DNA from: Jeotgalicoccus saudimassiliensis
Lineage (GTDB): Bacteria; Bacillota; Bacilli; Staphylococcales; Salinicoccaceae
Length of the DNA stretch: 64,000 nt
Assembly: GCF_000756715.1 (NCBI RefSeq)
Contig: NZ_CCSE01000001.1
Location: 62,001 to 126,000 of the forward strand
Reading direction: 5' to 3'
The notes under the pieces are model-generated. The model had not been told where the DNA came from and did not search any database. It saw only the letters and a program-made list of their open reading frames with translations. Shown one piece after another: positions 23,550 to 52,438 of this stretch; positions within the stretch are counted from its first letter, which is position 1; each line of letters starts with the position of its first letter. The translations under genes were made by a program, and so were the position numbers.

Positions 23550-24056
23550 ATGAGTATTGTGGACAGAATAGACAGAGATATTAAAGTGGCGGTACTGACA
23601 GTCAGTGACACGCGGGACAAATCAACGGATAAGGGCGGTAAACTCGTCATCGACTACATTCAGAAGATGAACGCATCCGTACCGGAAGAACACTACGAAA
23701 TCGTCAAAGACGAAATCGGCATCATCCAGAGTGCGGTAAAAAAATACCTCGAACAGGGCGTGGACGCTGTTATCACGACAGGCGGCACAGGCATTGCCCG
23801 CCGCGACGTGACAATCGAAGCAGTCACACCATTGTTCGATAAAGACATCCAGGGATTCGGCGAACTCTTCCGCATGCTGAGCTATACAGAAGACATCGGC
23901 TCAAGAAGCCTGTTATCAAGAGCAGCAGCCGGCACATACGGCAACCAGCTGATCATCTCACTGCCGGGATCAAGCGGCGCGGTAAAACTCGGCATGGAAA
24001 AACTTGTGATGCCCGAACTTAACCACCTGGTTTATGAACTGAATAAGGAAAACTAG
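23550..24056 (+). CDS. moaB: Molybdenum cofactor biosynthesis protein MoaB (MPT adenylyltransferase)
   Basis: A 168-residue MogA/MoaB-type protein. The molybdopterin-binding signature TTGGTGIARRDVTIEA lies in the middle, and LPGSSGAVKLGMEKL near the C-terminus. It adenylates molybdopterin before metal insertion by MoeA. It begins 12 bp after moeB with AGGAGCTG as RBS, so the pair is an operon. It is separated from the rest of the cofactor genes by the 41-bp array 4 and by moaC in the opposite orientation. Confidence 0.92.
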   Translation: MSIVDRIDRDIKVAVLTVSDTRDKSTDKGGKLVIDYIQKMNASVPEEHYEIVKDEIGIIQSAVKKYLEQGVDAVITTGGTGIARRDVTIEAVTPLFDKDIQGFGELFRMLSYTEDIGSRSLLSRAAAGTYGNQLIISLPGSSGAVKLGMEKLVMPELNHLVYELNKEN

Positions 24057-24078
24057 GGAGTTGCTGGTCTGAATTAGG

Positions 24079-24522
24079 TTGTTAGGTCCAACGGGCGGGC
24101 GATGACGGGTTGAATCAGCGTGTTTGGTCCAACGAGCGTTCGACGACGGTTCAAATCAGCGTGTTTGGTCCAACGAGCGTTCAACGACGGTCCAAACGAA
24201 CGTGTTTGGTCCAACGAGCAGCCGACGACGGTTCAAATCAGCGTGTTTGGTCCAACGAGCGTTCGACGACGGTCCAAATCAGCGTGTTTGACCCAACGAG
24301 CAGCCGACGACGGTCCAAATCAGCGTGTTTGGTCCAACGAGCAGCCCACGACGGTCCAAATCAGCGTGTTTGGTCCAACGAGCGTTCGACGACGGTTCAA
24401 ATCAGCGTGTTAGGTCCAACGAGCAGCCGACGACGGTCCAAATCAGCGTGTTTGGTCCAACGAGCAGCCCACGACGGTCCAAAACAAGGCAACTGACCCA
24501 ACGAGCAGCCGACGACGGACCG
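24079..24522 (+). repeat. Tandem 41-bp array 4 (about nine full units)
   Basis: Units starting GTGTTTGGTCCAACGAGC begin at 24120, 24161, 24202, 24243, 24284, 24325, 24366, 24407 and 24448; degenerate units flank them at about 24079 and 24489. The period is exactly 41 bp throughout. Two main unit types occur, differing after CGAGC: GTTCGACGACGG and AGCCGACGACGG. It lies between convergent moaB and moaC. The repetitive frames it creates on both strands should not be called as proteins. Confidence 0.9.
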
Positions 24523-24562
24523 CCCAACCGCCCAATCCAACCACAACCCGCACCACCCAACC

Positions 24563-34706: not shown

Positions 34707-36092
34707 ATGAGCACATTAATTAAAAATGGGATTATCGTAACGACGGATAATGAATATAAAGGCGATGTTTTTATCGATGGGACTAAAATAGAAGCGGTCG
34801 GCAGACATTTAACGATGGAAGCGGACAAAGTCATCGATGCTGAAGGGATGTATATTTTACCCGGCGGTATTGATCAGCATGCGCACTTTTCGTTTGAATT
34901 TATGGGAGAGAGAACGAAAGGATTTGAAACGACGGATGCTGCGGCACTTGGCGGAACGACGACGGTGATTGAGTTCGTTAACCAGGAAGAGGGCAAAGGA
35001 CTTGTTGAAACGGTTGAGGCATACCGTAAAGAGTGGGCAGAGGGTATCTCAATGGTGGACTACAGTTTCCACCCGGTGATTACGGACCCGACACCAGAAA
35101 CGTTTAAGGACATTAAAAACCTGCCTGCTGCGGGATATCCGACGGTTAAGTTGTTTATGGCGTATAAAGGGCAGTTCTTCCATTCGGATGATGAAGCGGT
35201 AACGAATGCTTTGCTTGAAGCTAAAGATGCAGGTGTGACTGTAATGGTGCATGCTGAGAATGCAGACTTAATTGATTTAATGCAGAAAAAAGCGATAGCG
35301 AACGGGGAAACTGATCCGTACCATCACGCGTTGACACGTCCGCCGATTGTTGAAACGGAAGCGACGGAACGTGCGATTAATCTGGCGAGATTTGCTGAAG
35401 CACCGATTTATATTGTTCATGTTACGACTGAAGGTGCAGTGAACGCGATTAAAAAAGCGAAAGAAGAAGGACTGCCGGTATATGGTGAGACGTGTACGCA
35501 GTATCTGCTGTTCGACAAAGAGTATCTGGCGAAAGAAGATTTTGAAGGGTCGAAATATGTATGTTCACCGGCGTTAAGAGATAAGAAAGACCAGGAATAC
35601 TTATGGAAATCGTTAAAAGACGGTTCGATCAATGCGGTAAGTTCGGACCACTGCGGATTTACGTTTGAGCAGAAGAAGATGGGACTGGATGACTTCAGGT
35701 TGATTCCGAACGGTACACCGGGACTAGAAAACCGTCTGCCGATGTTATGGACATACGGCGTTGAAGCGGGGAGAATTACGCGATCGGAGTTAGTGGATTA
35801 CTACTCGACGATGCCGGCGAAAAATAATGGACTGGATCACCGTAAAGGATATATCGCTCCGGGATATGATGCCGATGTTGTGATATATAATCCGATGGTG
35901 GAGAAGAAAGTTACGGTGGAAGACAGCCTGAATGCACTGGACTATACGGTGTATGAAGGATTCGACCAGATCGGTGAATGTGATGCGGTGTTCCTGAGAG
36001 GCACACAGGTCGTTAAAGACGGTAAATACGTTGGTGAAAAAGGCCAGGGTGCGTTTATAAAAGGAACAGCATTTGGTACGGCGTTTAGATAG
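34707..36092 (+). CDS. hydA: Dihydropyrimidinase / D-hydantoinase
   Basis: A 461-residue amidohydrolase-superfamily enzyme that opens cyclic ureides (dihydropyrimidines, hydantoins) to carbamoyl amino acids. The zinc motif HxH is at H58/H60 (DQHAHF), and the lysine that is carbamylated to bridge the metals is K148 (TVKLFMAYKG). Further His ligands lie in VMVHAEN and IYIVHVTTE, and the late Asp region is SSDHCGF. Length is normal. No carbamoylase or uracil-degradation partner is adjacent, so the substrate is open. Confidence 0.88.
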   Translation: MSTLIKNGIIVTTDNEYKGDVFIDGTKIEAVGRHLTMEADKVIDAEGMYILPGGIDQHAHFSFEFMGERTKGFETTDAAALGGTTTVIEFVNQEEGKGLVETVEAYRKEWAEGISMVDYSFHPVITDPTPETFKDIKNLPAAGYPTVKLFMAYKGQFFHSDDEAVTNALLEAKDAGVTVMVHAENADLIDLMQKKAIANGETDPYHHALTRPPIVETEATERAINLARFAEAPIYIVHVTTEGAVNAIKKAKEEGLPVYGETCTQYLLFDKEYLAKEDFEGSKYVCSPALRDKKDQEYLWKSLKDGSINAVSSDHCGFTFEQKKMGLDDFRLIPNGTPGLENRLPMLWTYGVEAGRITRSELVDYYSTMPAKNNGLDHRKGYIAPGYDADVVIYNPMVEKKVTVEDSLNALDYTVYEGFDQIGECDAVFLRGTQVVKDGKYVGEKGQGAFIKGTAFGTAFR

Positions 36093-39944: not shown

Positions 39945-42728
39945 ATGGGATATCAGAGCGAGGCAGCACTTGAAAATCAAGTAATGGAACAGCTTGGACG
40001 ACAAGGTTTTGAAAATGTGAAGCTGTATTCCATTGAAGCAATTATTGATAACTTCAGAAAAATATTGAATGAGCGACATCAGGATAAATTGAATGGTAAA
40101 CCTCTCACTGACAGTGAGTTTGACCGTTTGATGACTCAGATTAACGGTAAAAACGTATTTACCAGTGCTCAGATATTACGCGATAAGTTTGTTCTCAGAA
40201 GAGATGATGAGACGGATATTTATCTGGAATTTTTCAGCAAAGATTCATGGCGTAAGAATATATATCAGGTAACAAATCAGGTTGCAGTGAGTGATAAGTA
40301 TAAAGGACGTTATGATGTCACAATTTTAGTGAACGGACTGCCTGTGACGCAAATTGAGCTTAAACGCAGTGGAGTAGCAATTGAGGAAGCGTTCAATCAG
40401 ATTGAGCGTTATAGAAGAGATAACTACAAAGGTCTGTTTAAGTATGTCCAATTATTTATTGTGAGCAACAGCCAAAATACACGGTACTTTGCCAACAGTG
40501 ACAAAGAGATTTATAAGAGCAGTATGTTTTATTGGTCAGATGATCAGAATAATACTATTAACAGACTGTCGGATTTCCTGGGGGACTTCTGTACACCATG
40601 CAGACTGTCGAAAATGATCAGCCGATATATGATTATTAATGAGACGGACCACAACTTAATGGTCATGCGGCCTTATCAGGTCTATGCAACAGAAGCATTG
40701 ATTGAGCGTGCTACGGAGACAAATAATAACGGATATATTTGGCACACGACGGGAAGCGGGAAAACACTGACTTCATTTAAGGCAAGTCAGCTGTTATCCG
40801 AAAGACCGGAAATACAAAAAGTAATATTCCTCGTAGACCGTAAAGACCTTGATGCACAAACAATGTCGGAGTTTAACAAGTTCCAAAAGGACTCAGTGGA
40901 TTTCACGACTAATACGGCAAAACTGGAACGTCAGCTAGCGGACAAGTCTCAGCCGATGATTGTAACAACAATTCAAAAGCTGAATAATGCTGTTAAGAGA
41001 AACAACAGTGTAATGGACCAGTACAAAACAGATAAGGTTATATTCATTATTGACGAGTGTCACCGATCGCAGTTTGGAGACATGCATACTCAGATTGCCA
41101 AACACTTCACGAATGCTCAATTCTTTGGATTTACGGGTACCCCGAGGTTCGAAGAGAACAGAAGTGCAGACGGCAGAGCTACAGCTGATATTTTTGATAA
41201 GTGCCTGCACTATTACTTAATTAAAGATGCGATACGAGACGGAAACGTGCTGGGTTTCTCCGTAGAATATATCAACACATTCAAAGGAGAAAATCCGTTT
41301 CTTGATGATGAATATGTGTCTGGAATAGAAGCGAATAAAATATGGTTGGCAGATGACAGAATTAATCTGGTTACAGACCATATATATAATATCCATTCCA
41401 AAAAGACAGCGCAAAAGGAATACTCGGCAATTCTCGCGACTCAAAGCATAGAAATGGCGATGAAATATTACGATACATTTAAAGCGCGTGAAGCGGAGCA
41501 TAAAAAGAAAAAGTTAAAAGTAGCGACTATTTTTTCTTATGAAGCTAATCAGAGTTTACGGGAGGGCGAAATCAAGGAAGCTGGTAAAGATCAGCTTGCC
41601 CGTGTTATTGCTGACTATAACGAGATGTACAATACCAACTTCTCACTTGAGACCTATGATGGATACTTCAATGATATTTCCAAGCGTGTTAAAAAAGGGC
41701 TCAAAGGTGGAAAAATAGATGTACTTATAGTTGTTGGTATGTTCCTCACAGGGTTTGACAGTAAAAAGTTAAATACGCTGTATGTGGACAAAAACTTAAG
41801 ACATCATGATTTAATACAGGCCTATTCAAGAACAAACCGTGTAGAGAAGAAAACAAAACCATACGGGAACATAGTTTGCTTCAGAAATCTTAAGCAGGAA
41901 ACTGATGATGCAATTAAGCTGTTCTCGAGAACAGATGATACTGATACAGTACTTCAGAGACCTTATGAAGAATACCTGGAAGAATTTAAACAGGCACTGG
42001 TTGTGTTAAAAGGCATTGCACCAAGTCCAATCGATGTTCCACGTATTGAAAAAGAAGAAGAAATTAAATTCTTCGTTGAAACATTCAGAAGGCTGAGCAG
42101 AGCATTGGTTAAACTGAAAACATTTATGGACTTTGAATTTAAAGAAGAAGTCACCGGCATCGATTCACAGGAACATCAGGATTACCGCAGTCATTATATT
42201 GATTTGTATAATGAGCATATTAAAAAACCTGATCCTGAAAAAGCATCTATCCTGGATGACATTGACTTTGAGATTGAGATCATCCGGAACGAAATGATTA
42301 ATGTGAGCTATATTATAAATCTGATTAATAATATTGATCTGGAAGACAAAGATAATCAGCGACGTGAAATTGCGAGTATCAGAAACATTCTGGACGGTGC
42401 GGATGATGAACAGTTGCGCCTGAAGTCAGAACTGATTAAAGAGTTCCTGGATACAGTGGTTCCTACACTTGGTAAAGACGCAAACGTTGCAGCGGAGTAC
42501 CTAGATTTTGAAGAAGAGCAGCGAATCAGAGAAATACAGGAATTTGCAAAAGAGAATGACTATTCGCAGGAACAATTAAATACTCTGTTATCAGAGTTCC
42601 AGTTCAGCGGACAAGTTTACCGGAAGGATATAGAGGAAGGTATCTCCGGTTCGTTCTTAGTGAGACGTAAAAAAGTGGATAAGATTCAGAGCTACATCCG
42701 CGAAGTAACAGAGAAATACGGCGTTTAA
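39945..42728 (+). CDS. hsdR: Type I restriction enzyme R subunit
   Basis: A 927-residue motor/nuclease subunit. The N-terminal nuclease has D..(Q)xE-x-K as [18 protein letters not shown] (about 123-142). The SF2 translocase has Walker [11 protein letters not shown] near 267, Walker B DECHRSQ near 370, [10 protein letters not shown], and motif [13 protein letters not shown]-terminal helical region contacts the methylase. It cuts DNA after translocation when the HsdS target is unmethylated. The base composition is closer to the host than that of hsdS. RBS GAGGGTTG precedes ATG. Confidence 0.95.
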
Positions 42729-42789
42729 ATTAACTCTCAAGTAAAACTTGAGGGTTTCTAATATTTGTTTTACAGGAGGAAACTTTTCA

Positions 42790-44385
42790 ATGATGACAGT
42801 AACAGAAAAGCAAAGACAGCAGCAGGCTGAATTACAGAAAAAACTATGGAGTATCGCAAACGACTTAAGAGGAAACATGGATGCGAGTGAATTCCGTAAC
42901 TATATACTAGGATTAATTTTTTATAGATTCTTATCTGAAAAGATGGAAGAGGAAGTTGAAAGGTTATTAAGAGAAGATAATATAACTTTCAGCGAAGCTT
43001 GGGAAGATGAAGAAATAAAAGAAGCATTATCGGACGAACTTATCAAAAGAATAGGGTATTTAATTGAACCGGAATTCCTGTTCAGCAGTTTAGTAAGTGA
43101 TATTGAAGCGGGTAAATTTGATATAGAGCAGTTGTCTAAAGCAATAAATAAAGTAGAGGAATCTACACTAGGTACAAAGAGTGAAGATGACTTTGTTCAT
43201 TTGTTCTCCGATATGGATTTAACATCTAACCGATTAGGTAATAACGTTTCTAACCGTACGAAGTTAATTTCTAAAGTCATGTTGAATCTAGCAGATTTAC
43301 CGTTTGTACATAGTGATATGGAAATTGATATGCTCGGTGATGCTTACGAGTATATGATTGGTCAGTTCGCAGCAACAGCTGGTAAAAAAGCTGGAGAATT
43401 TTATACTCCGCAGCAGGTTTCTAAATTATTAGCAGAAATTGTTACGACAGATAAAGAGGATTTACGCAGTGTCTATGACCCGACATGTGGATCCGGTTCA
43501 TTACTATTACGTGTAGGTCGTTTAGCTCATGTAAGACACTATTATGGGCAGGAATACAATAGTACGACATATAACCTGGCGCGAATGAACATGCTGCTGC
43601 ATGATGTGAACTTTAAAGCTTTCTCTATAGAAAATGGAGACACTTTAGAAGAACCTGCATTCCCAGACGAGAAGTTTGATGCGATTGTAGCGAATCCACC
43701 ATACAGTGCGAAGTGGAGTGCTGATCCATCATTCTTAGAAGATGAGCGTTTCAGTAACTATGGTAAATTGGCACCAAAATCTAAAGCAGACTTTGCATTT
43801 GTTCAACATATGATTCATCACTTGGATGATGAAGGGACTATGGCTGTTGTTTTACCGCATGGTGTACTTTTCAGAGGAGCTGCTGAAGGAGTTATCCGTA
43901 AGTATCTTATAGAAGAGAAGAACTATCTGGATGCGATTATTGGTCTGCCTGCGAATATTTTCTTTGGAACGAGTATTCCAACAACGATTCTAGTCTTTAA
44001 AAAGTCACGTGAGACAGAAGATGTGTTGTTTATAGATGCATCACAGTCATTTGAAAAAGGTAAAAACCAAAACCATATGTCTGATGAAGATGTGGACAAA
44101 ATAATTGAAACATATAGAAATCGTGAAGTTATAGATAAATACAGTTATGTAGCAACGCGTGAAGAGATTGAAGAGAATGAATATAACTTAAACATTCCGA
44201 GATATGTCGACACGTTTGAAGAAGAAGAGCCAGTAGATATAAAGGCACTTCATGAGGAAATTAAAACTATCAATAAAGAAATAGCTGAAGCGGAAGCAAG
44301 TCTGCTTGAAATGTTAGATGAGCTTGAGGGTGATGAAGACGGAATGGCACTTATAGAAGCAACGAAAGAGGTGTTTCGTCGATGA
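42790..44385 (+). CDS. hsdM: Type I DNA methyltransferase M subunit
   Basis: A 531-residue N6-adenine methyltransferase. The HsdM N-terminal helical domain (about 10-150) is followed by the SAM-binding motif DPTCGSGSLLLR (around 229) and the catalytic NPPY (around 301, ANPPYSAKWS). The ATG at 42790 is chosen for AGGAGG nine bases upstream; a longer TTG-started frame begins inside the intergenic hairpin. The stop codon overlaps the hsdS start (ATGA), typical of coupled hsdM-hsdS translation. Confidence 0.95.
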   Translation: MMTVTEKQRQQQAELQKKLWSIANDLRGNMDASEFRNYILGLIFYRFLSEKMEEEVERLLREDNITFSEAWEDEEIKEALSDELIKRIGYLIEPEFLFSSLVSDIEAGKFDIEQLSKAINKVEESTLGTKSEDDFVHLFSDMDLTSNRLGNNVSNRTKLISKVMLNLADLPFVHSDMEIDMLGDAYEYMIGQFAATAGKKAGEFYTPQQVSKLLAEIVTTDKEDLRSVYDPTCGSGSLLLRVGRLAHVRHYYGQEYNSTTYNLARMNMLLHDVNFKAFSIENGDTLEEPAFPDEKFDAIVANPPYSAKWSADPSFLEDERFSNYGKLAPKSKADFAFVQHMIHHLDDEGTMAVVLPHGVLFRGAAEGVIRKYLIEEKNYLDAIIGLPANIFFGTSIPTTILVFKKSRETEDVLFIDASQSFEKGKNQNHMSDEDVDKIIETYRNREVIDKYSYVATREEIEENEYNLNIPRYVDTFEEEEPVDIKALHEEIKTINKEIAEAEASLLEMLDELEGDEDGMALIEATKEVFRR

Positions 44386-45617
44386 GTAAAGAAGAAAGAA
44401 AAGTCCCTGAACTGCGGTTTAAAGGCTTTCATGACGATTGGGAACATCGTAAGTTAAACGACGTCCTGTTACAAATGAAAAGTGGATTGTCACGAAAACT
44501 ATCTGTAACTGATATTGGTCTACCTGTTATTCGTGCTAATAATATAAACAATGGAAAACTTGATTTAATTAATGATATAAAATATTGGTACGTACACGAT
44601 CCACAAGGTGCAAAAACTTCTAATTATTTGGTGAAAAGAAATGATATACTTGTTAATTTTATAAATAGTGAATCAAAAATGGGAACAACAGCAATAGTGT
44701 TAAAAGAACCAGTGAGAGATACAATTTATACGACTAATATAATGAAATTAAAAGTAAATACAAAAGAATATCATCCTTATTTTATATTTCAACAAACATT
44801 AACAGGTAAGTATAAGAATTATATTAAAATCATTACGAAACCCGCAGTGAACCAATCTAGTTTTACTACTGTAGATTTTAAGAAGTACAATTTTCACGTA
44901 CCTAATTATAATGAGCAACAAAAGATTAGTAGTTTACTTCAAAATTTTGATAACTTAATTACCCTTCATCAGCGTAAATATGTAAATCTCGTGAAATTAA
45001 AAAATGTATATCTTAAGAAAATATTTAATCAGCAATTAGTATTTGAAGACGGAAAGAATGATTGGAAAGAGATAAAATTTAATGAATTCATGTATAGACC
45101 TAAAAATTTATTAAAAGCCAAAAATATCGGTAAGAATGAACTTTTAACAGTCAAACTTTTTGGAAAAGGTATAACGATAGCCAATCAAAATCGAGCACTT
45201 AAGCTTGGAGCAACAACATACTATAAAAGATACGCAGGAGACTTCATTTACGGCAAACAAAATTTTTTTAATGGCGCATTTGGTTTTATAGACAAAAATC
45301 TCGATGGTTATTATAGTTCTGGAGACGTTCCAACATTGAAATTCAATTCAGAAATTATAGATAGATATTTTTTCTTAAGCTATATTTCAAGAGAGAATTA
45401 TTATAAGCGAACAGAAGCATACTCTTCAGGTACAGGTAGTAAACGTATACACGAAGATACATTATTAGATTTTAAAATAAAAGCCCCAATAATATCAGAA
45501 CAAAGAAAGATTGCCAATTTAATGTGTGAAATCGATGATTTAGTTAATGATTATTCACAAAGGTTGAAATATCTTAGTGATATTAAATCTCTGTATATTA
45601 ATAAAATGTTTATCTAG
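44382..45617 (+). CDS. hsdS: Type I specificity subunit (expressed allele)
   Basis: A 411-residue HsdS with two target-recognition domains (about 20-170 and 225-375), a central conserved helix (QQKISSLLQNFDNLITLHQRKYVNLVKLKNVYLKKIF region) and a C-terminal copy (RKIANLMCEIDDLV). The start VPELRFKGFHDDWEHRKL is the usual N-terminus. It is far more A+T-rich than hsdR/hsdM, as expected for exchangeable recognition domains. The sequence GATTGGGAACA at 44436 recurs inverted in the silent allele at 47823, which makes it a candidate recombination site. Confidence 0.93.
   Translation: MSKEERKVPELRFKGFHDDWEHRKLNDVLLQMKSGLSRKLSVTDIGLPVIRANNINNGKLDLINDIKYWYVHDPQGAKTSNYLVKRNDILVNFINSESKMGTTAIVLKEPVRDTIYTTNIMKLKVNTKEYHPYFIFQQTLTGKYKNYIKIITKPAVNQSSFTTVDFKKYNFHVPNYNEQQKISSLLQNFDNLITLHQRKYVNLVKLKNVYLKKIFNQQLVFEDGKNDWKEIKFNEFMYRPKNLLKAKNIGKNELLTVKLFGKGITIANQNRALKLGATTYYKRYAGDFIYGKQNFFNGAFGFIDKNLDGYYSSGDVPTLKFNSEIIDRYFFLSYISRENYYKRTEAYSSGTGSKRIHEDTLLDFKIKAPIISEQRKIANLMCEIDDLVNDYSQRLKYLSDIKSLYINKMFI
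44436..44446 (+). repeat. Left arm of inverted repeat in hsdS
   Basis: GATTGGGAACA, encoding part of the DWEHR/DWEQR segment, is found inverted at 47823-47833 in the silent hsdS. Extending to 15 bases (44436-44450) gives one mismatch. It lies exactly where a swap would exchange both recognition domains. Confidence 0.6.
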
Positions 45618-45645
45618 AGAGAATAATTCTCTCTAGATGTTTTTA
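45612..45645. terminator. Hairpin between convergent hsdS and recombinase
   Basis: A 13-bp perfect stem (ATCTAGAGAGAAT and its complement, 45612-45638) includes the hsdS stop codon and is followed by TGTTTTTATT. Confidence 0.75.
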
Positions 45646-46572
45646 TTACAAGGTAGATAAATGTCTTATAATTTTATCGTTATCCTGATTATCTAACTCT
45701 TTAATTATATGCAAATATGTTTCCTGAGTAGTTATCATACTGGAGTGTCCAAGTCTTCTTGCTACACTGGCGATAGATACACCTGCAAAAAGTAATAAAG
45801 AGGCATGTGTATGTCTAAGTCCATGGATTGAAATAATGGGGATATCAGTTTTAATACATAATGCTCTCAATCTATTATTTACCATAGAATTATAGATTCT
45901 ACCTTTAACGAATATAGGTTTCTCAGGGTCTAATTCTCTAATCATTTGTGAAAACTGCATTGCTACCTGCCAATCCATTATCACTTTACGGTTTGATGAT
46001 TTATTTTTAGTTTCCTGCATGCTCCCTTTTGAAGATTTATAATCCCAAGTCTTTTCTATAGAAATACTTTGTTTCGAAAAGTCAAAATCATTTGGCGTTA
46101 AGGCAAGCGCTTCTGAAAAACGTAATCCCGTTTTAGCAACAAGCAGGATAAACCAATCCCAATTAATCTGATTATTAAGATCTAAGTTTTTAAGTAATCC
46201 CTGTAGCTCAAATTGATTAAGAAATTTTATCTTCTTAGGTTTCGGCTTTCTTCCTTTAATAATAACTTTACGGGTAGGATTTTTATCAATAATTCCCTCA
46301 TCCACGGCATCAAGTATTGCCCCTTTTAACTGATGATGAAAATCCATTGTTGTTTGTTTCTCATGAGTAAAAGCGTAATCATTTAGAATCTGCTGGTAAC
46401 TTTGGCGATCTAAATCATACATACGTAGATTAGGTGCCAATAACTCCAACTTTTGAAGAGTCATATAGTACTTATTTAAAGTCACATCACGAACAGCTCC
46501 GACTTTGTATAATTCGATCCAATCTTCGAAATATCTAAAAAATAATTGATTCTCTTTCTTTTTCACTGACAT
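45646..46572 (-). CDS. Tyrosine recombinase of the hsdS locus
   Basis: A 308-residue phage-integrase-family recombinase: SAM-like core-binding domain (about 8-100) and catalytic domain. Visible catalytic residues are Arg in TGLRFSEAL, His and Arg in HGLRHTHAS, His in RLGHSS, and the nucleophile Tyr in TYLHI. RBS AGGAGGG is placed 10 bases before ATG. It lies between two inverted hsdS alleles, as do recombinases that shuffle hsdS genes in streptococci and lactobacilli (for example the PsrA/CreX type). A role as DNA invertase for hsdS is a strong inference from this layout. Confidence 0.88.
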   Translation of the reverse strand: MSVKKKENQLFFRYFEDWIELYKVGAVRDVTLNKYYMTLQKLELLAPNLRMYDLDRQSYQQILNDYAFTHEKQTTMDFHHQLKGAILDAVDEGIIDKNPTRKVIIKGRKPKPKKIKFLNQFELQGLLKNLDLNNQINWDWFILLVAKTGLRFSEALALTPNDFDFSKQSISIEKTWDYKSSKGSMQETKNKSSNRKVIMDWQVAMQFSQMIRELDPEKPIFVKGRIYNSMVNNRLRALCIKTDIPIISIHGLRHTHASLLLFAGVSIASVARRLGHSSMITTQETYLHIIKELDNQDNDKIIRHLSTL

Positions 46573-46642: not shown

Positions 46643-47863
46643 TTATAAAAACATTTTGCGGAGGTATTCCCCTTTTAATTCTTGTAAAATTTTAATTTTC
46701 TTTTTTCGTAATTGGAGGTTTAGAATTAGTAACTTAAAAAATTCTCCTATATAAACTTGTTCCTCATATATTGGTAATTTAAGTTTAATATCCATAGCTT
46801 TTATCTTAGATATATTATATCTGGAGACCCCTTGTGCTAATATATACATTTGTTTCCTAAAACTATCACTACGTAAAAGATTAGCTAAGAACAAGTGGTC
46901 ATATTTCATTACAGGTCTAAAGCCAAAACAGAAACTATTCAAATAGACATTAGGTCTATTATCTAACCATACGGAAGACATTCCGACCTCGTTAGGTGTT
47001 TCTGATGAAACAGTGAAGAGGATGTCGCCATATTGTAAACTATTTTGCTTTGGATCTTTCATTATTTTATCAGTAAGTGATGTGTCGGCAATTGGATTGT
47101 TAAACACATTTAGATACGGAACATATTCTGCATCCCCATGTCCAAAATCATCTTTTGTTTTACCGGATAGGCTTGTGAATGTATTGCCAATATCTCCGAG
47201 TCTTGATTGATTCCATTGATTACTATAATTTATATTTCGTATTTTAGGTGTGTTTTCTTCTAGATTAGCGGACATTTTAGATTGAAATATTTGAAATATC
47301 TGATGAGTTTTAGTAATACTTTCCTGATGAAGAGAAGCTAAGTTGTCCACCTTACATATTAAATCTTTAATTTTTTTCTGCTCATCAATGCTCGGGAATT
47401 TTATTGATAATTTTTTAAAATTACTTCCATGTAAATGAACAATAGTTTTTCCTTGAGCGTATTTAGATAGTCTCTTTTTCGTATTACCATGTGAAAGTGT
47501 TAGAGCTAAAAAAGTATTATTTAAAGAACTTTTAGGTGTAACTATATTTAAATCACTACCCAATATTATGCCTTGAGAAGTTACTGATGCCGCTATTGAT
47601 ATGTCCTCAGAAGATTCTCCAGATGCAGGTATTATTACCTCATTACCTTTACTGTAAATAGATCCTGATTTCGGATGTACGAATTGATTAGTAAAACTAA
47701 TTTCAGACGTATAGTTTGTATATAACTGCCCATAAAGTATTATTTGATTTCCTTCATTAATCAAATCTTTCTTACTGTAAAACTTCCCCTTTGATATTGA
47801 AGATACCTTAGAAAGTTCACGCTGTTCCCAATCATAAATATGAATGGCTAACTCTGGATAATA
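46643..47863 (-). pseudogene. hsdS': Silent second hsdS allele, no start codon or promoter
   Basis: An open frame of ~406 codons encoding an HsdS from the conserved PEL...DWEQREL start through two different recognition domains to the C-terminal helix (LKGEYLRKMFL). The frame is open only from 47863, directly after the helicase operon's terminator. It has no ATG, RBS or promoter at its 5' end; the first residues before PEL in the active allele are missing. Internal TTG starts would remove the conserved N-terminus. It is therefore a storage cassette that becomes expressed only if joined to the 5' end of hsdS by inversion. Recognition domains differ markedly from the active copy. Confidence 0.85.
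47823..47833 (-). repeat. Right arm of inverted repeat in silent hsdS
   Basis: TGTTCCCAATC on the plus strand is the exact complement of GATTGGGAACA at 44436. The enclosed 3.4 kb contains the hsdS body, recombinase and silent hsdS. A second short inverted match, CTTCATCAG at 44964 and its complement at 47324, lies in the central conserved regions. Confidence 0.6.
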
Positions 47864-47892
47864 TTAAAAAAGCCTAGGATATTTCCTAGGCC
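47864..47892 (-). terminator. Terminator of the sigma-helicase operon
   Basis: GCCTAGGA (47872-47879), TATT, TCCTAGGC (47884-47891); on the minus strand it is followed by TTTTTT. It isolates the silent hsdS from upstream transcription. Confidence 0.88.
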
Positions 47893-47900
47893 TTTTCATA

Positions 47901-50900
47901 TTAATCTTTATGAATTGCATGCTGTACCTTAGAAGGTATCTGCCCAAAGAAGTAGTCTTCAACAACTCTCCAAAATTCATTTGTATAGTTTTGTTGTTTT
48001 TCTTTAGGATTCTCCCCATCTACTTCCAGTGAGAATAAATGCTTATACATTTCTAATGCTCTTAAATAAGTAAAGTACTGATCAGTTAGAATTTTATTGT
48101 TATATTTATTAGGGTTTTCGACAAAACGTTGCATTTGCGCAATAGAGTTAATTCTTAATGAAATACTAGGTTTATTACCCCCATTTAATTCAAATGCTAA
48201 AAGACCAAAAGTTTCTAAAAATCCAAGCAATATATTCTGATAATCTGTTTCTTCACTCTTATAAATTCTAGGAAGATAATAATTTGTAAATGGACCTTTA
48301 TCATGTTTTGCTACTTTATTAATTAATTTATTGAGAGAGTCTTTAAGTAGTTCTAATAAATCTTCATAGTTATTAGTAATTTTATATTTGTCATTATCAT
48401 AGCGTGTAATGGACCTGGTATTTTTTATAGAATCTAGTTGCACCAGAGTACTTAAAATTATAGAGGCATACTTTTCTGCTGTTCGATCTTTTATAGACAT
48501 GGTTCTTGATAATTTTGATTTAAATTCTTTAATAGTGAAGTGGGACTGGGATGTGGCAAATGATCGTAAAGATTTTTCAGTATTACTAATAATATTATCA
48601 AGTTTTTGTGTAATGTTTTCTTCTGAAACCGAAGGTTCAAAGATTACTTTATACTGTATAGCAAAAGTTAAATTTCTTAGTATGGGATCTCTACGAATCT
48701 CATCTCCACGTTTGGCAAGGAAGAATTTAAATTGTCTGTATGAGATAGTGCTAAAGTTTTTCTTCCAATAATCTTCAGTTCGAAAAATATATATTGCTTG
48801 ATAAAAAGAGTTTTCTAAATTTGAGATTTTAGAAAAATATCCTCTATATCTTGGGCTTTCTATTTGATTAATCAGCTCTTTATTTGCAATGACATAGTCT
48901 TGGCTGTTAACGGAGCCTGGTCTTGAAACAAATGGAGGGTAGTTTAATTTGTCCCTAAAATCATTTTCAATGGTGAGCAGGGCAAGTTTAACTTTCTTTT
49001 CTAGCTCATCGTCAGTTTGATCATCATCATCTTTATTAAATAAGTAGTCAAAGGACTCAATATCTATATTTAAGTGTCTCTTATTTCCTGATTTCTTATA
49101 AAGAGTCAGGATTTTATCCATCACATCGATTAATTGATTTTTTTTTGTAGATGATAAAGCCCTTAACTGTTTGTATTCGTTGAAATCTCTATTCGGTAAA
49201 TAATCTAGCATTGCTAAACCATTCATGCCTTCTTTTCTAGCAACTCGGCCAATCTCTTGAATATAATCTAACAGATTTCCGGTAATGGCATAGTGGTAAA
49301 CAATTTGAATGTCAGGTATATCTATTCCCATACCAAAAGCTTTTGTAGCTAGCATTATATTGCTATTTCCATCTTTAAAAGCTTTGAAATTTATTTGTTT
49401 ATCTTCAGGTGTCAATTGCCCGTGATAAGTAGTAACTTTATCTTCTAGATCTGGACTTAAGCCAGAAATGTACTTACTAAAATGTCGTAAACTAGAAACG
49501 GTTGGGAAATAAATAAGCATCTTTTTTTCGTTCTTAACAACTTGCTTAATTCTAGTTAAAGTTGCGTTATGTTTAATACTTATTGCATCATTTCCACTTT
49601 TTTTCTTTTCATCATCTTGAATTTTCTTGACGTTGATTGAAATATTGTCTTTCTTAACTCTACCTATATATTGAATCGGTGATACTAGATTTAGTGATTT
49701 TTTAATTTCACCATACATATCATCTGGTCCACCAATTATAGCAGTAGCGGTAAATGTGACTATTGGAAAATGATGTTCTTTACGAAGTTTATTTAAATAA
49801 CTGCCCATATACCAATAATCAACACGGAAAGTACGTCCCCACGTAGTAATTGTATGAGCTTCGTCTACTACAAATAATCCAATTCTTCTATCACCGATGA
49901 GATCTTGAATATCAGATCTATTTATTAAAGTTTCAATAGAAATGTATAGTAAATCAATTTTACCGTCCTTAATATCCTGAGAAATAACTGCTTTTTCGGT
50001 CGGTGTGAGACCTGAGTTTATTGTTTTGGCATTGTTGATTTCTCTCTTATTTAAATTTTCAACTTGGTCATTCATTAAACCAATCAATGGTGAAATAACT
50101 AATGTTAAGGGATTTTCATCAGGATATTTTTTACTAATATAAAGGGAGGGGACTTGGAACATAACAGATTTCCCTGCACCCGTAGATGACGTTACAAAGA
50201 TATCACGAGGAGTTGCTCCTTCGATTGAGGATTCCATCTGTGTGACAATATCATCAATGATTTGTGCCTGGCTAATTTTTGAAGCTTCTCGCTTTCGTGT
50301 ATCGGTATATATATCTAAATTTAAGAAGCTGTCATATCCCCAATATTTGTTTAGAATTTCCTGATATTCTTTTTCTCGACTAATAATCTTTTTCTTTTGC
50401 TTGGGATGATAAATATAAAAAGAGTGATCCTCTCTATATGAAGATAAGGCTTTTACAACGTTGAGAACTTCTTCTGTAATAGTTGAGCTTATCGCAATAA
50501 TTTGTTTGTTATGAGAATCTACAAATTGATTTAACTCCACTATAGTCCTAGGATCACCGTTATATTCAAATGAATAATTAAATGAAACATCATCTAATTC
50601 GTCTTTATCATCGAGATCCTTGTCTATATTATAGAAGCCATATTGAACAAATTTATTCAACAGATCGTCATCTATACTTATAAAGTATTCACCATTTATA
50701 TTATGGATTGAAGGATATACTGAATTTATAGCTTCATCTATTGGAGTTGCTTGATAATCATCATCTTCATATAAAGATTTATAATACAAATCAATATTAC
50801 TAAAGGAATGATTATAAGGATAAATTGAAATAAATTTATTATTATATAAGATCGATATATCGTTATCATCTAGAAGAATATTGATGAGGTCTCGAAACTG

Positions 50901-51116
50901 GATGAACTCTTCATAAGTGATCCATTTTGGCGAGGTAATATTTTGGAAATTAGAAATAAAATCTCTGGATTGTACTTCAGAGTTTAGGAATTTATCTAAT
51001 CCATTTGCAATTGGTATATCTAATAGTTTTTCAGGAAATACTTTCAACTCTTCTTCAGTAAATCCTACTAGCACTGTTAGCTTAGTTTTTATTAGGTCTA
51101 TAAACCCTTCAGACAT
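47901..51116 (-). CDS. RecQ-like SF2 DNA helicase with long N- and C-terminal extensions
   Basis: A 1071-residue protein. Residues ~1-280 match nothing I know. The RecQ-like helicase core (~285-650) has Walker A STGAGKS near 313, DEAH near 417 (VVDEAHTITTWGRTFR), FGMGIDIPDIQIVYHY, and motif VI QEIGRVARKEG near 624. The last ~420 residues are unassigned, and I see no cysteine cluster as in the RecQ zinc domain. The start is placed at ATG 51116 with GGAGGAG upstream; it overlaps the sigma-factor stop by eight bases (ATGTCTGA), so expression is coupled. The neighbours suggest anti-phage defence. Relatives of DpdF-type helicases are a possible comparison. The gene is A+T-rich. Confidence 0.8.
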   Translation of the reverse strand: MSEGFIDLIKTKLTVLVGFTEEELKVFPEKLLDIPIANGLDKFLNSEVQSRDFISNFQNITSPKWITYEEFIQFRDLINILLDDNDISILYNNKFISIYPYNHSFSNIDLYYKSLYEDDDYQATPIDEAINSVYPSIHNINGEYFISIDDDLLNKFVQYGFYNIDKDLDDKDELDDVSFNYSFEYNGDPRTIVELNQFVDSHNKQIIAISSTITEEVLNVVKALSSYREDHSFYIYHPKQKKKIISREKEYQEILNKYWGYDSFLNLDIYTDTRKREASKISQAQIIDDIVTQMESSIEGATPRDIFVTSSTGAGKSVMFQVPSLYISKKYPDENPLTLVISPLIGLMNDQVENLNKREINNAKTINSGLTPTEKAVISQDIKDGKIDLLYISIETLINRSDIQDLIGDRRIGLFVVDEAHTITTWGRTFRVDYWYMGSYLNKLRKEHHFPIVTFTATAIIGGPDDMYGEIKKSLNLVSPIQYIGRVKKDNISINVKKIQDDEKKKSGNDAISIKHNATLTRIKQVVKNEKKMLIYFPTVSSLRHFSKYISGLSPDLEDKVTTYHGQLTPEDKQINFKAFKDGNSNIMLATKAFGMGIDIPDIQIVYHYAITGNLLDYIQEIGRVARKEGMNGLAMLDYLPNRDFNEYKQLRALSSTKKNQLIDVMDKILTLYKKSGNKRHLNIDIESFDYLFNKDDDDQTDDELEKKVKLALLTIENDFRDKLNYPPFVSRPGSVNSQDYVIANKELINQIESPRYRGYFSKISNLENSFYQAIYIFRTEDYWKKNFSTISYRQFKFFLAKRGDEIRRDPILRNLTFAIQYKVIFEPSVSEENITQKLDNIISNTEKSLRSFATSQSHFTIKEFKSKLSRTMSIKDRTAEKYASIILSTLVQLDSIKNTRSITRYDNDKYKITNNYEDLLELLKDSLNKLINKVAKHDKGPFTNYYLPRIYKSEETDYQNILLGFLETFGLLAFELNGGNKPSISLRINSIAQMQRFVENPNKYNNKILTDQYFTYLRALEMYKHLFSLEVDGENPKEKQQNYTNEFWRVVEDYFFGQIPSKVQHAIHKD

Positions 51117-52362
51117 TAGAAAACTCCTCCAAATATTCATTGAACTTTAATTTCGTAAATTGATTTTTTAACTTTCTAAAAGACCTTGCCTCTATTTGTC
51201 TAACTCGCTCCCGAGTTACATTCAACTCTGTTCCGATTTCTTCCAAAGTCATCGGTTCTTTATTATTTAACCCTATTCTCATTGAAAGAATATATTTTTC
51301 TCGCTCATCAAGTCTATCATCGAAGATTACATTAATTTCGTCGAGGAATGAACTTCTCATTAATTCTTCATCAGGAGTCTTGATGTAATCTCCATTAATT
51401 CTATTAGAAGCATCGACAAAGCTCTCCAGTGGAGTGGATTGGTCTTCACCTACTAAATGATGTAAAGAAGCGATCCCTTGATTAAATTGTTTATCAATTC
51501 TTAAGAAATTCATAATTGTGTCTTCGCTCATGTCTAGAGCGGTCATACTATAATTAACTTGCTCCATGAAATCATCGTTTCCGGATTCTTTAAAAGCTTT
51601 ATTTAGTGAGTTTATTTTGTCGTGAATATGAACAGGCAGACGGATAGTTAGTTTATAATTAGCAATATCTCTAAGAATATTTTGTCTTATCCAAGTAGTA
51701 GCATAAGTAGAGAACTTATATCCGAGTGTTGGATCAAACTTCTGTATAGCAGTCCTCAAACCACAGTTCCCGCTAGAAATTAGATCATCTATATCGAGTA
51801 TCGAATTTTCAACTATTTTTTCATAGTGAGAAGCAATTTTTTGTACAAGTCCTTGATTTGCCAGTATTATTTGCTCAACTGTATCTATATCTTTTTCGGT
51901 ATTATTAGTATTTAATCTATCAAAGTAAACTTCGTTATAATCATGATGAACTATTACATCAGTGAGTTCTATATCAGCCATTTCTTTGAAGTCATCACTA
52001 TCTTCTAGGTCTGTAAGGAAATCAAAATCATCATCCATTTCAGTATCTTTAATTTCATCAGGAACACTAATATTTTTATCTTCTGAATTATTTTCTTCCG
52101 GAGATGAAATATTCTGTTGTTGAACTGTACAATCACCATCTATTTTTGCTATTTCATCTTTAGACTCAAATTGAAATCCGAGTTTTTCAATGAAATTTAT
52201 TCCTTTTTCTTTATCAAAAAATAACTTCTCATAGAGGTAAGCACTGGTGATAGATATTCTCCCATCATTGACATCTGACAAGAAATCTTCGAAGTCAAAC
52301 TCTAATATCTTTTCATGAGAATTATTAGTAAAAAACTTTACTAAATCAACTTCGTTTTTCAT
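51109..52362 (-). CDS. Sigma-70-family sigma factor with novel acidic N-terminus
   Basis: A 417-residue sigma factor. Residues 1-150 are an unfamiliar domain (a helical first part, then an acidic linker DDDFDFLTDLEDSDDF). Region 1.2/2 follows (~157-235: ANQGLVQKIASHYEK, DLISSGNCGLRTAIQKFD, FSTYATTWIRQNI). Region 3 is next, then region 4 with the HTH MTLEEIGTELNVTRERVRQI (~369-390). It has group 1/2 features and is not ECF-like. It differs from housekeeping RpoD in the N-terminus and region 2 details (SSGNCGL for the usual EGNIGL-type segment). It is the first gene of an operon with the helicase. It may direct RNA polymerase to defence promoters or sense phage takeover of transcription; both ideas are speculative. 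Confidence 0.85.
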   Translation of the reverse strand: MKNEVDLVKFFTNNSHEKILEFDFEDFLSDVNDGRISITSAYLYEKLFFDKEKGINFIEKLGFQFESKDEIAKIDGDCTVQQQNISSPEENNSEDKNISVPDEIKDTEMDDDFDFLTDLEDSDDFKEMADIELTDVIVHHDYNEVYFDRLNTNNTEKDIDTVEQIILANQGLVQKIASHYEKIVENSILDIDDLISSGNCGLRTAIQKFDPTLGYKFSTYATTWIRQNILRDIANYKLTIRLPVHIHDKINSLNKAFKESGNDDFMEQVNYSMTALDMSEDTIMNFLRIDKQFNQGIASLHHLVGEDQSTPLESFVDASNRINGDYIKTPDEELMRSSFLDEINVIFDDRLDEREKYILSMRIGLNNKEPMTLEEIGTELNVTRERVRQIEARSFRKLKNQFTKLKFNEYLEEFSNV

Positions 52363-52409
52363 AAAACTCACGTCCTATTAAATTTAATATTCTGATTATG
52401 TTAACTTAA

Positions 52410-52438
52410 TTATACCTGATTAATTCTTTTTATAAAGA
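52410..52438 (-). promoter_or_regulatory. Candidate promoter of sigma-helicase operon
   Basis: Minus strand: CTTTAT (52438-52433), 17-bp spacer, perfect TATAAT (52415-52410), about 48 bp before ATG 52362. The -35 is poor, which is compatible with an unusual sigma or activator. Confidence 0.45.

Follow-up and report, generated by a model that had tools for sequence, protein, structure and literature searches.

Bacterial immune systems seldom include a complete transcription initiation factor. The one precedent that turned up in our searches is MzaA of the MZA system, a sigma-70 factor (NCBIfam model) encoded in a described anti-phage operon; PMC9523054 likewise gives it as a sigma factor, and the original prediction for the locus reported here, that no described anti-phage system includes a dedicated sigma factor, was thus mistaken. 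BREX provides a smaller parallel in the SIGMA-HTH-like domain of its defence ATPase BrxL (PMC12839542), a small domain rather than a complete sigma factor. RecQ-type helicase cores are present in DpdF of the Dpd system, in PsyrT and in SngC of Shango, and the PADLOC database models a full-length helicase family, C3a193 (PDLC01089), as "poss. alt. Cas3". We compare these with two adjoining genes on the reverse strand of a 64,000 nucleotide (nt) stretch of the Jeotgalicoccus saudimassiliensis genome (contig NZ_CCSE01000001.1, positions 62,001 to 126,000; "the window" below means this whole stretch). The upstream gene (51109..52362) is an open reading frame for a 417 amino acid (aa) sigma-70 factor with Pfam matches Sigma70_r2 and Sigma70_r4, and the downstream gene (47901..51116) encodes a 1071 aa RecQ-fold superfamily 2 (SF2) helicase; the sigma stop and the helicase start overlap by eight bases, ATGTCTGA (51109..51116), as read directly from the sequence. 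The predicted coordinates, strand, lengths and overlap were exact. The pair has the look of a defence cassette of a kind not yet described, often lying beside anti-virus genes in many bacteria, and a search of the open-access literature (bioRxiv was outside its scope) returned no description of it among the matches listed. We file it as the sigma-bearing form of a helicase family already on PADLOC's list of candidates; its role in defence is a predicted one. The reading we favour, with a probability of roughly 0.45, is that it is a horizontally moving two-gene defence cassette whose sigma factor would direct the cassette's own expression and whose helicase is the predicted effector.

Relatives were collected from plasmids and by scanning 84,980 species genomes, in which the best 80 of 575 loci encoding a relative were taken; with five plasmid loci and the window these make 86 family loci (L numbers denote loci and G numbers genomes). 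Such a best-80 set favours relatives of the window helicase, and we therefore also scanned further genomes: 398 from the phylum, 33 from the family and 81 from the family to which G012 belongs. A sigma gene adjoins the helicase gene in 36 of the 86 loci (37 if the split sigma gene of L033 is counted). The two genes are co-directional in 33 of these 36 loci, and 32 of the 33 are spaced by at most 20 nt or overlap when measured from the first possible start codon; they are divergent in the other three, which include the near-copies L006 and L014. In a tree of 82 helicases plus RecQ, one branch separates the 36 paired members from the 46 others (Shimodaira-Hasegawa-like approximate likelihood ratio test, SH-aLRT, 100), where shuffled labels require 27 changes; the partial helicases of L035, L085, L086 and L088 were left out of the helicase trees. 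A larger tree of 94 helicases (44 paired, 50 unpaired, L159 dropped) again needs a single pairing change (SH-aLRT 99; shuffled mean 31), its 44 paired rows representing 42 distinct helicases, since over the kept columns L163 is 100% identical to L015, and L187 to L042. Eleven genomes outside the first set (copies excluded) carry a family member, six with an adjacent sigma gene, four without one and one odd. All six new paired loci (L155-L158, L186 and L188) fall inside the sigma clade and all four new unpaired loci (L160-L162 and L189, of which L161 and L162 are 97% alike) fall outside it. For 34 pairs the tree of the sigmas and that of the helicases are congruent (Mantel r 0.71, equalled in 0 of 2000 permutations); this comparison leaves out L006, whose sigma gene is cut by the start of the record, and L035, whose helicase gene is cut by a contig end. 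Finally, 35 pair sigmas and the host SigA proteins of 30 genomes (that of the window and 29 others that carry the pair) form separate clades with support 99 in a tree made without L006 and without the non-SigA locus L144.

The single pairing change, the congruent trees and the separate SigA clade together indicate that one old sigma lineage was joined to one helicase lineage, and that SigA was not captured repeatedly. The prediction that the two genes are one inherited unit is borne out. It had also proposed linkage of the homologues in other genomes as a check, and here the answer divides: the genes are linked throughout the sigma-bearing clade, and the unlinked helicases, 50 of the 94 rows, are confined to a clade of their own. 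We give almost no credence to the idea that the sigma gene merely happens to precede the helicase gene; such adjacency can arise, as is seen at L159, where the neighbour of a helicase from the sigma-less clade is an ordinary SigA-like gene, but the confinement of pairing to a single deep clade and the behaviour of the new loci on both sides of it argue otherwise, and for the sigma clade this co-inheritance refutes it. At L159 (8303-12415) the helicase gene is broken by a stop codon and is nearest to that of L160, and its SigA-like neighbour lies 12 nt downstream; this is possibly a second, independent sigma association. A tree that includes it (42 paired and 49 unpaired rows) requires two changes.

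The sigma factor appears equipped for its usual work. Region 2, which binds core RNA polymerase and reads the -10 element (residues 166-234; 51661..51867, reverse strand), and region 4, which has the -35 reading helix (residues 349-399; 51166..51318, reverse strand), are matched by Pfam in the window protein at E 5e-13 and 2e-15, respectively, and both are present in 33 of 33 family sigmas. The prediction of complete regions 2 to 4 holds for these two, but region 3 is below threshold in the window protein (12.9 bits against a cut-off of 25.3); it is matched at E <=0.01 in 25 of the 33. In the -35 motif TRERxRQxE the E, R, R, Q and E positions are invariant in all 33 and the T and first R are kept in 32. 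This invariance of the contact residues argues that promoter reading is under selection. The equivalent of Q437 (E. coli numbering), a -10 residue, is kept in 32 of 33 pair sigmas. At the position of W433, the first of the two tryptophans in the melting dyad, 11 of 33 pair sigmas have tryptophan, versus 30 of 30 SigA proteins. Such a residue pattern is that of an alternative sigma factor, which reads promoters but melts them less readily. We conclude from regions 2 and 4 and from the DNA-reading residues that the protein is of the sigma-70 type and should be able to start transcription. It scores 181.6 bits against the RpoD_Cterm model (cut-off 354). It is not MzaA itself: on the MzaA model NF041931 it scores 191.1 bits, below both the roughly 370 bits of ordinary sigma genes in the phylum and the cut-off of 800.

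The N-terminus (residues 1-150; 51913..52362, reverse strand) is acidic as predicted, with 42 D+E and 14 K+R, and in the predicted structure the predicted local distance difference test score (pLDDT) is below 50 at residues 1-22 and 62-112. It had been called unfamiliar, but in two of the three subgroups of relatives compared the N-termini resemble sigma region 1.1, a mark of primary (group 1) sigma factors. Profile comparison with SigA gave a score of 32.8 (probability 85%) for clade B (18 rows, one mis-trimmed), where 100 column shuffles reached at most 14.6, and 26.8 for the long N-termini of clade A (six rows), where 50 shuffles reached at most 13.4; the window's own subgroup (seven rows) scored 12.8 against 9.6 when shuffled (probability 0.5%), and a resemblance is not demonstrable there. 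L004, L006, L011, L019 and L024 were left out of this comparison. The sigma partner at L024 (7095-9953) is 953 aa long, with about 660 extra N-terminal residues that have no Pfam match and that resemble, by eye, repeated restriction-subunit N-terminal domains.

The helicase has a RecQ core between two parts of its own. Pfam finds the DEAD and Helicase_C domains at residues 302-628 (49233..50213, reverse strand), a region that includes Walker A, DEAH, the aromatic-rich loop WGRTFRVDYW and motifs V and VI, and the loop, as WG..FR.D[YF]W, is present in all 44 paired helicase rows; by these motifs the motor is intact. About 300 residues before the core and 440 after it lack a Pfam match, much as had been predicted for the two ends, but a fold search with the whole model, whose returns were filled by RecQ core matches, assigns residues from about 240 onward to the RecQ fold. 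A profile of the N-terminal domain (residues 1-240; 50397..51116, reverse strand) matched no PDB sequence at E 1, and that of the C-terminal part (residues 661-1071; 47904..49136, reverse strand) had a sole, unconvincing PDB match at E 0.2. The protein thus has the RecQ SF2 core and aromatic-rich loop and lies outside the RecQ family as judged by scores and accessory domains. Compared with the RecQ helicases proper (bacterial RecQ, BLM, WRN, RECQL5) it has no RQC or HRDC match and no cysteine at all, and it falls short of the curated cut-offs for recQ (189 bits; cut-off 640) and recQ_fam (181 bits; cut-off 219.8). The best DpdF models, PsyrT and SngC match its core only, between approximately residues 245 and 676, and on the DpdF equivalog NF041063 it reaches 118 bits where 550 are required; it is therefore not the Dpd helicase.

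The PADLOC family C3a193 is a different case, as residues 52-1060 of the window helicase match positions 45-982 of this 983-position model (E 1e-131), and eight of eight further family members tried match it too. Four of the five sigma-less members score 543-823 bits (the fifth, the short L067, 454) versus 439-517 for all four sigma-paired ones. It had been said that membership of a named defence family would tell against the pair as a unit; the family is indeed modelled at full length, and the model is silent on any sigma partner. For annotators this means that the PADLOC "possible alternative Cas3" family contains a large sigma-bearing branch. A CRISPR-linked Cas3 substitute was considered for the pair and rejected: a crude array script, which covered flanks of at most 10 kb for most loci, gave four matches, namely L029, which is an array, the window, where the match is a tandem repeat, L002 and L007.

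The joint inheritance of the two proteins would also be expected if the sigma factor were a structural partner that takes the helicase to RNA polymerase or promoters on invading DNA, where the helicase would act on transcribing complexes, a parallel to RECQL5 and RNA polymerase II. The congruent trees, however, speak to joint inheritance only, and in three of the 36 loci, as in L158, the genes are divergent and cannot be coupled in translation. The N-terminal domain profile, present in 41 of 42 sigma-paired helicases (L159 and L163 counted), is also found in 10 of 49 unpaired ones, and the C-terminal profile is present in all 91 helicases searched. By analogy with RECQL5 such a partnership is the chief alternative to the reading we favour, although we think it rather unlikely.

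Within the genus of the window the pair is accessory DNA. The helicase family, with or without sigma, is present in 9 of 398 genomes of the phylum (the window's own included), in 2 of 33 genomes of the family (its own and that of L015), in none of eight congeners, and in 6 of 81 genomes of G012's family (the known carriers G012 and G026 counted). A nucleoside hydrolase gene (named by its sequence) past the pair is kept in all seven other good congener genomes, and the slot between it and a hydantoinase gene (also named by its sequence; gene end at 36092) is 16.5 kb long here and 2.6 kb in G432. The type I restriction genes and the recombinase recur in congener G429, where the place of the pair is taken by a 694 aa enzyme of PADLOC Orf5/HEC-06 (E 2e-133), also SspE-like (L175:14001-16082). 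The slot is a variable one of a defence type, which agrees with the predicted setting of the window's unit. Part of that prediction was an A+T-rich surround; the G+C content is indeed 0.30-0.32 over the pair versus 0.42-0.50 across the first 36 kb of the window, but the DNA beyond 56 kb is likewise A+T-rich (0.34-0.36).

This sparse distribution is what one would expect if the pair served a mobile element, in its expression or upkeep in new hosts, and not defence; plasmids of Enterococcus, Lactiplantibacillus and Exiguobacterium do carry it. It is, however, also present on complete chromosomes (Peptoniphilus and Erysipelothrix), no common element backbone was noticed among the loci in neighbour clusters, type I restriction genes recur nearby in different orders, and the congener has PADLOC-listed enzymes in the same slot, and we regard service to a mobile element as improbable. 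Less probable still is a DNA-repair or stress operon in which a stress sigma factor governs a repair helicase. The RecQ fold and the neighbours common to several Selenomonadales loci would suit it, but presence in 6 of 81 and 9 of 398 genomes is too sparse for housekeeping repair, and the window genome has a separate RecQ-like frame of 598 aa. A phage origin of the pair was considered as well and rejected. Viral contigs scanned with the single sequence yielded no relative, an alignment scan found at least 23 loci, all with a partial core among the matches listed (the best 29% identical over residues 255-717) and none a full-length relative, and 27 phage records were matched, none over 80% of the query. 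When plasmids were searched with the sigma factor, the 30 records listed out of 421 were for the most part rpoD and rpoS genes, along with the partner from E. faecium.

The neighbours seen near the pair in the window are the genes of a type I restriction system and of a recombinase. Among loci of at least 15 kb, 8 of 28 paired ones and none of 27 unpaired ones have relatives of hsdR or hsdM (Fisher p 0.004; 7 of 27 paired loci and p 0.010 without the window), in several gene orders. Of 166 listed neighbours a hand-picked 129 were scanned with PADLOC, without a background control, which gave in the first set type I methylases for 10 and specificity subunits for 9 of 62, and among the 67 others PbeA (four), type I enzymes (three), type IV enzymes (three), mad3 (three), GajB (two) and DRT helicase (two), all among the matches listed. 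The pair is an inherited unit, sparse, accessory in the genus of the window, and, judging from these genes, often in defence-type neighbourhoods.

As a defence cassette the pair might work as follows. The sigma factor would load host core RNA polymerase and initiate transcription of its own cassette, and sometimes perhaps of the adjoining type I restriction genes as well; it may act above all once host SigA is displaced or blocked, as in phage takeover of transcription. The RecQ-like helicase would be the effector, unwinding or disrupting incoming DNA, and possession of its own sigma factor could free the cassette from the promoter habits of each new host. A more specific idea, which we consider unlikely, is an immunity that guards transcription: a dedicated sigma factor of primary type would compete for core polymerase, and when a phage disables SigA or displaces it the freed polymerase would be captured and the helicase switched on or physically delivered. 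If true, this would mean that the cell senses theft of its own transcription machinery. With its sigma factor and helicase coupled throughout one deep clade and its DNA-reading residues intact, this compact two-gene system would let a connection between immunity and the seizure of RNA polymerase by phages be tested directly.

Several points weigh against the cassette with a self-directed sigma factor. The claim that the sigma factor drives its own operon finds no backing in a consensus scan for promoters upstream of the sigma genes, which over the loci is at chance level (8.83 of 12 matches versus 8.84 when shuffled), and three groups aligned showed no clear upstream footprint. The candidate 5' of the window sigma gene (TTTATA, 16 nt, TATAAT; 52409..52436, reverse strand) agrees at 10 of 12 positions, where shuffles average 9.3, which is also about chance level. 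Regulators usually turn over, and a sigma factor that has persisted through such divergence is compatible with a physical subunit too. L159 breaks the simple pairing rule. The type I excess is weaker when the unpaired loci outside the Bacteroides clade are the comparison (8 of 28 versus 0 of 14, p 0.037), and the neighbour scans carry the selection mentioned above. In addition, the surroundings of some paired loci are ordinary genes: five Selenomonadales loci (L021, L022, L033, L036 and L039) share one downstream gene family, of Pyr_redox type in L021, and a methionyl-tRNA synthetase gene adjoins L024 and a chemotaxis receptor gene L032.

The pair has its own intrinsic terminator, as predicted. 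A hairpin with a T run (47865..47898, reverse strand) directly after the helicase stop codon has a free energy of -20.6 kcal/mol (z -5.5), and none of 200 shuffles was equally stable. Beyond it lies the type I locus, with hsdR, hsdM and hsdS on the forward strand and a tyrosine recombinase gene on the reverse strand (39945..46572; open reading frames, with Pfam matches for hsdS and the recombinase; hsdR and hsdM are named from their own sequences and from the REase_I match that PADLOC gives for the aligned G429 gene), followed by an inverted hsdS cassette (46643..47764, reverse strand; Pfam Methylase_S). The two hsdS cassettes thus flank the recombinase gene in opposite orientation, and a 15-nt inverted repeat (93%) stands at the starts of both (44436-44450 and 47819-47833); a search for inverted repeats of at least 25 nt found none. 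The reading frame of the inverted cassette stays open beyond the first start codon, like that of a silent shuffling cassette. The original prediction placed the pair beside a phase-variable type I locus, and the inverted cassette, recombinase and repeat are all there; phase variation itself is plausible.

Other observations concern the repeats and the sigma-less relatives. The tandem array in the window (24025-24557) has a 41-nt step and no relation to the sigma-helicase pair. The CRISPR array at L029 (11015-11769) has 11 repeats at 67-68 nt spacing and lies about 6.6 kb downstream of the sigma-helicase pair there, with a WCX-domain gene between. The sigma-less members L062-L084 of the Bacteroidaceae, mostly about 810-850 aa long, stand beside upstream gene families that they have in common (clusters of 11 to 14 loci), as though they occupied a conserved chromosomal place. 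Genes beside two other sigma-less members match the Hachiman HamB and Old/GajA models (L160:11671-13722 and L162:10999-13200).

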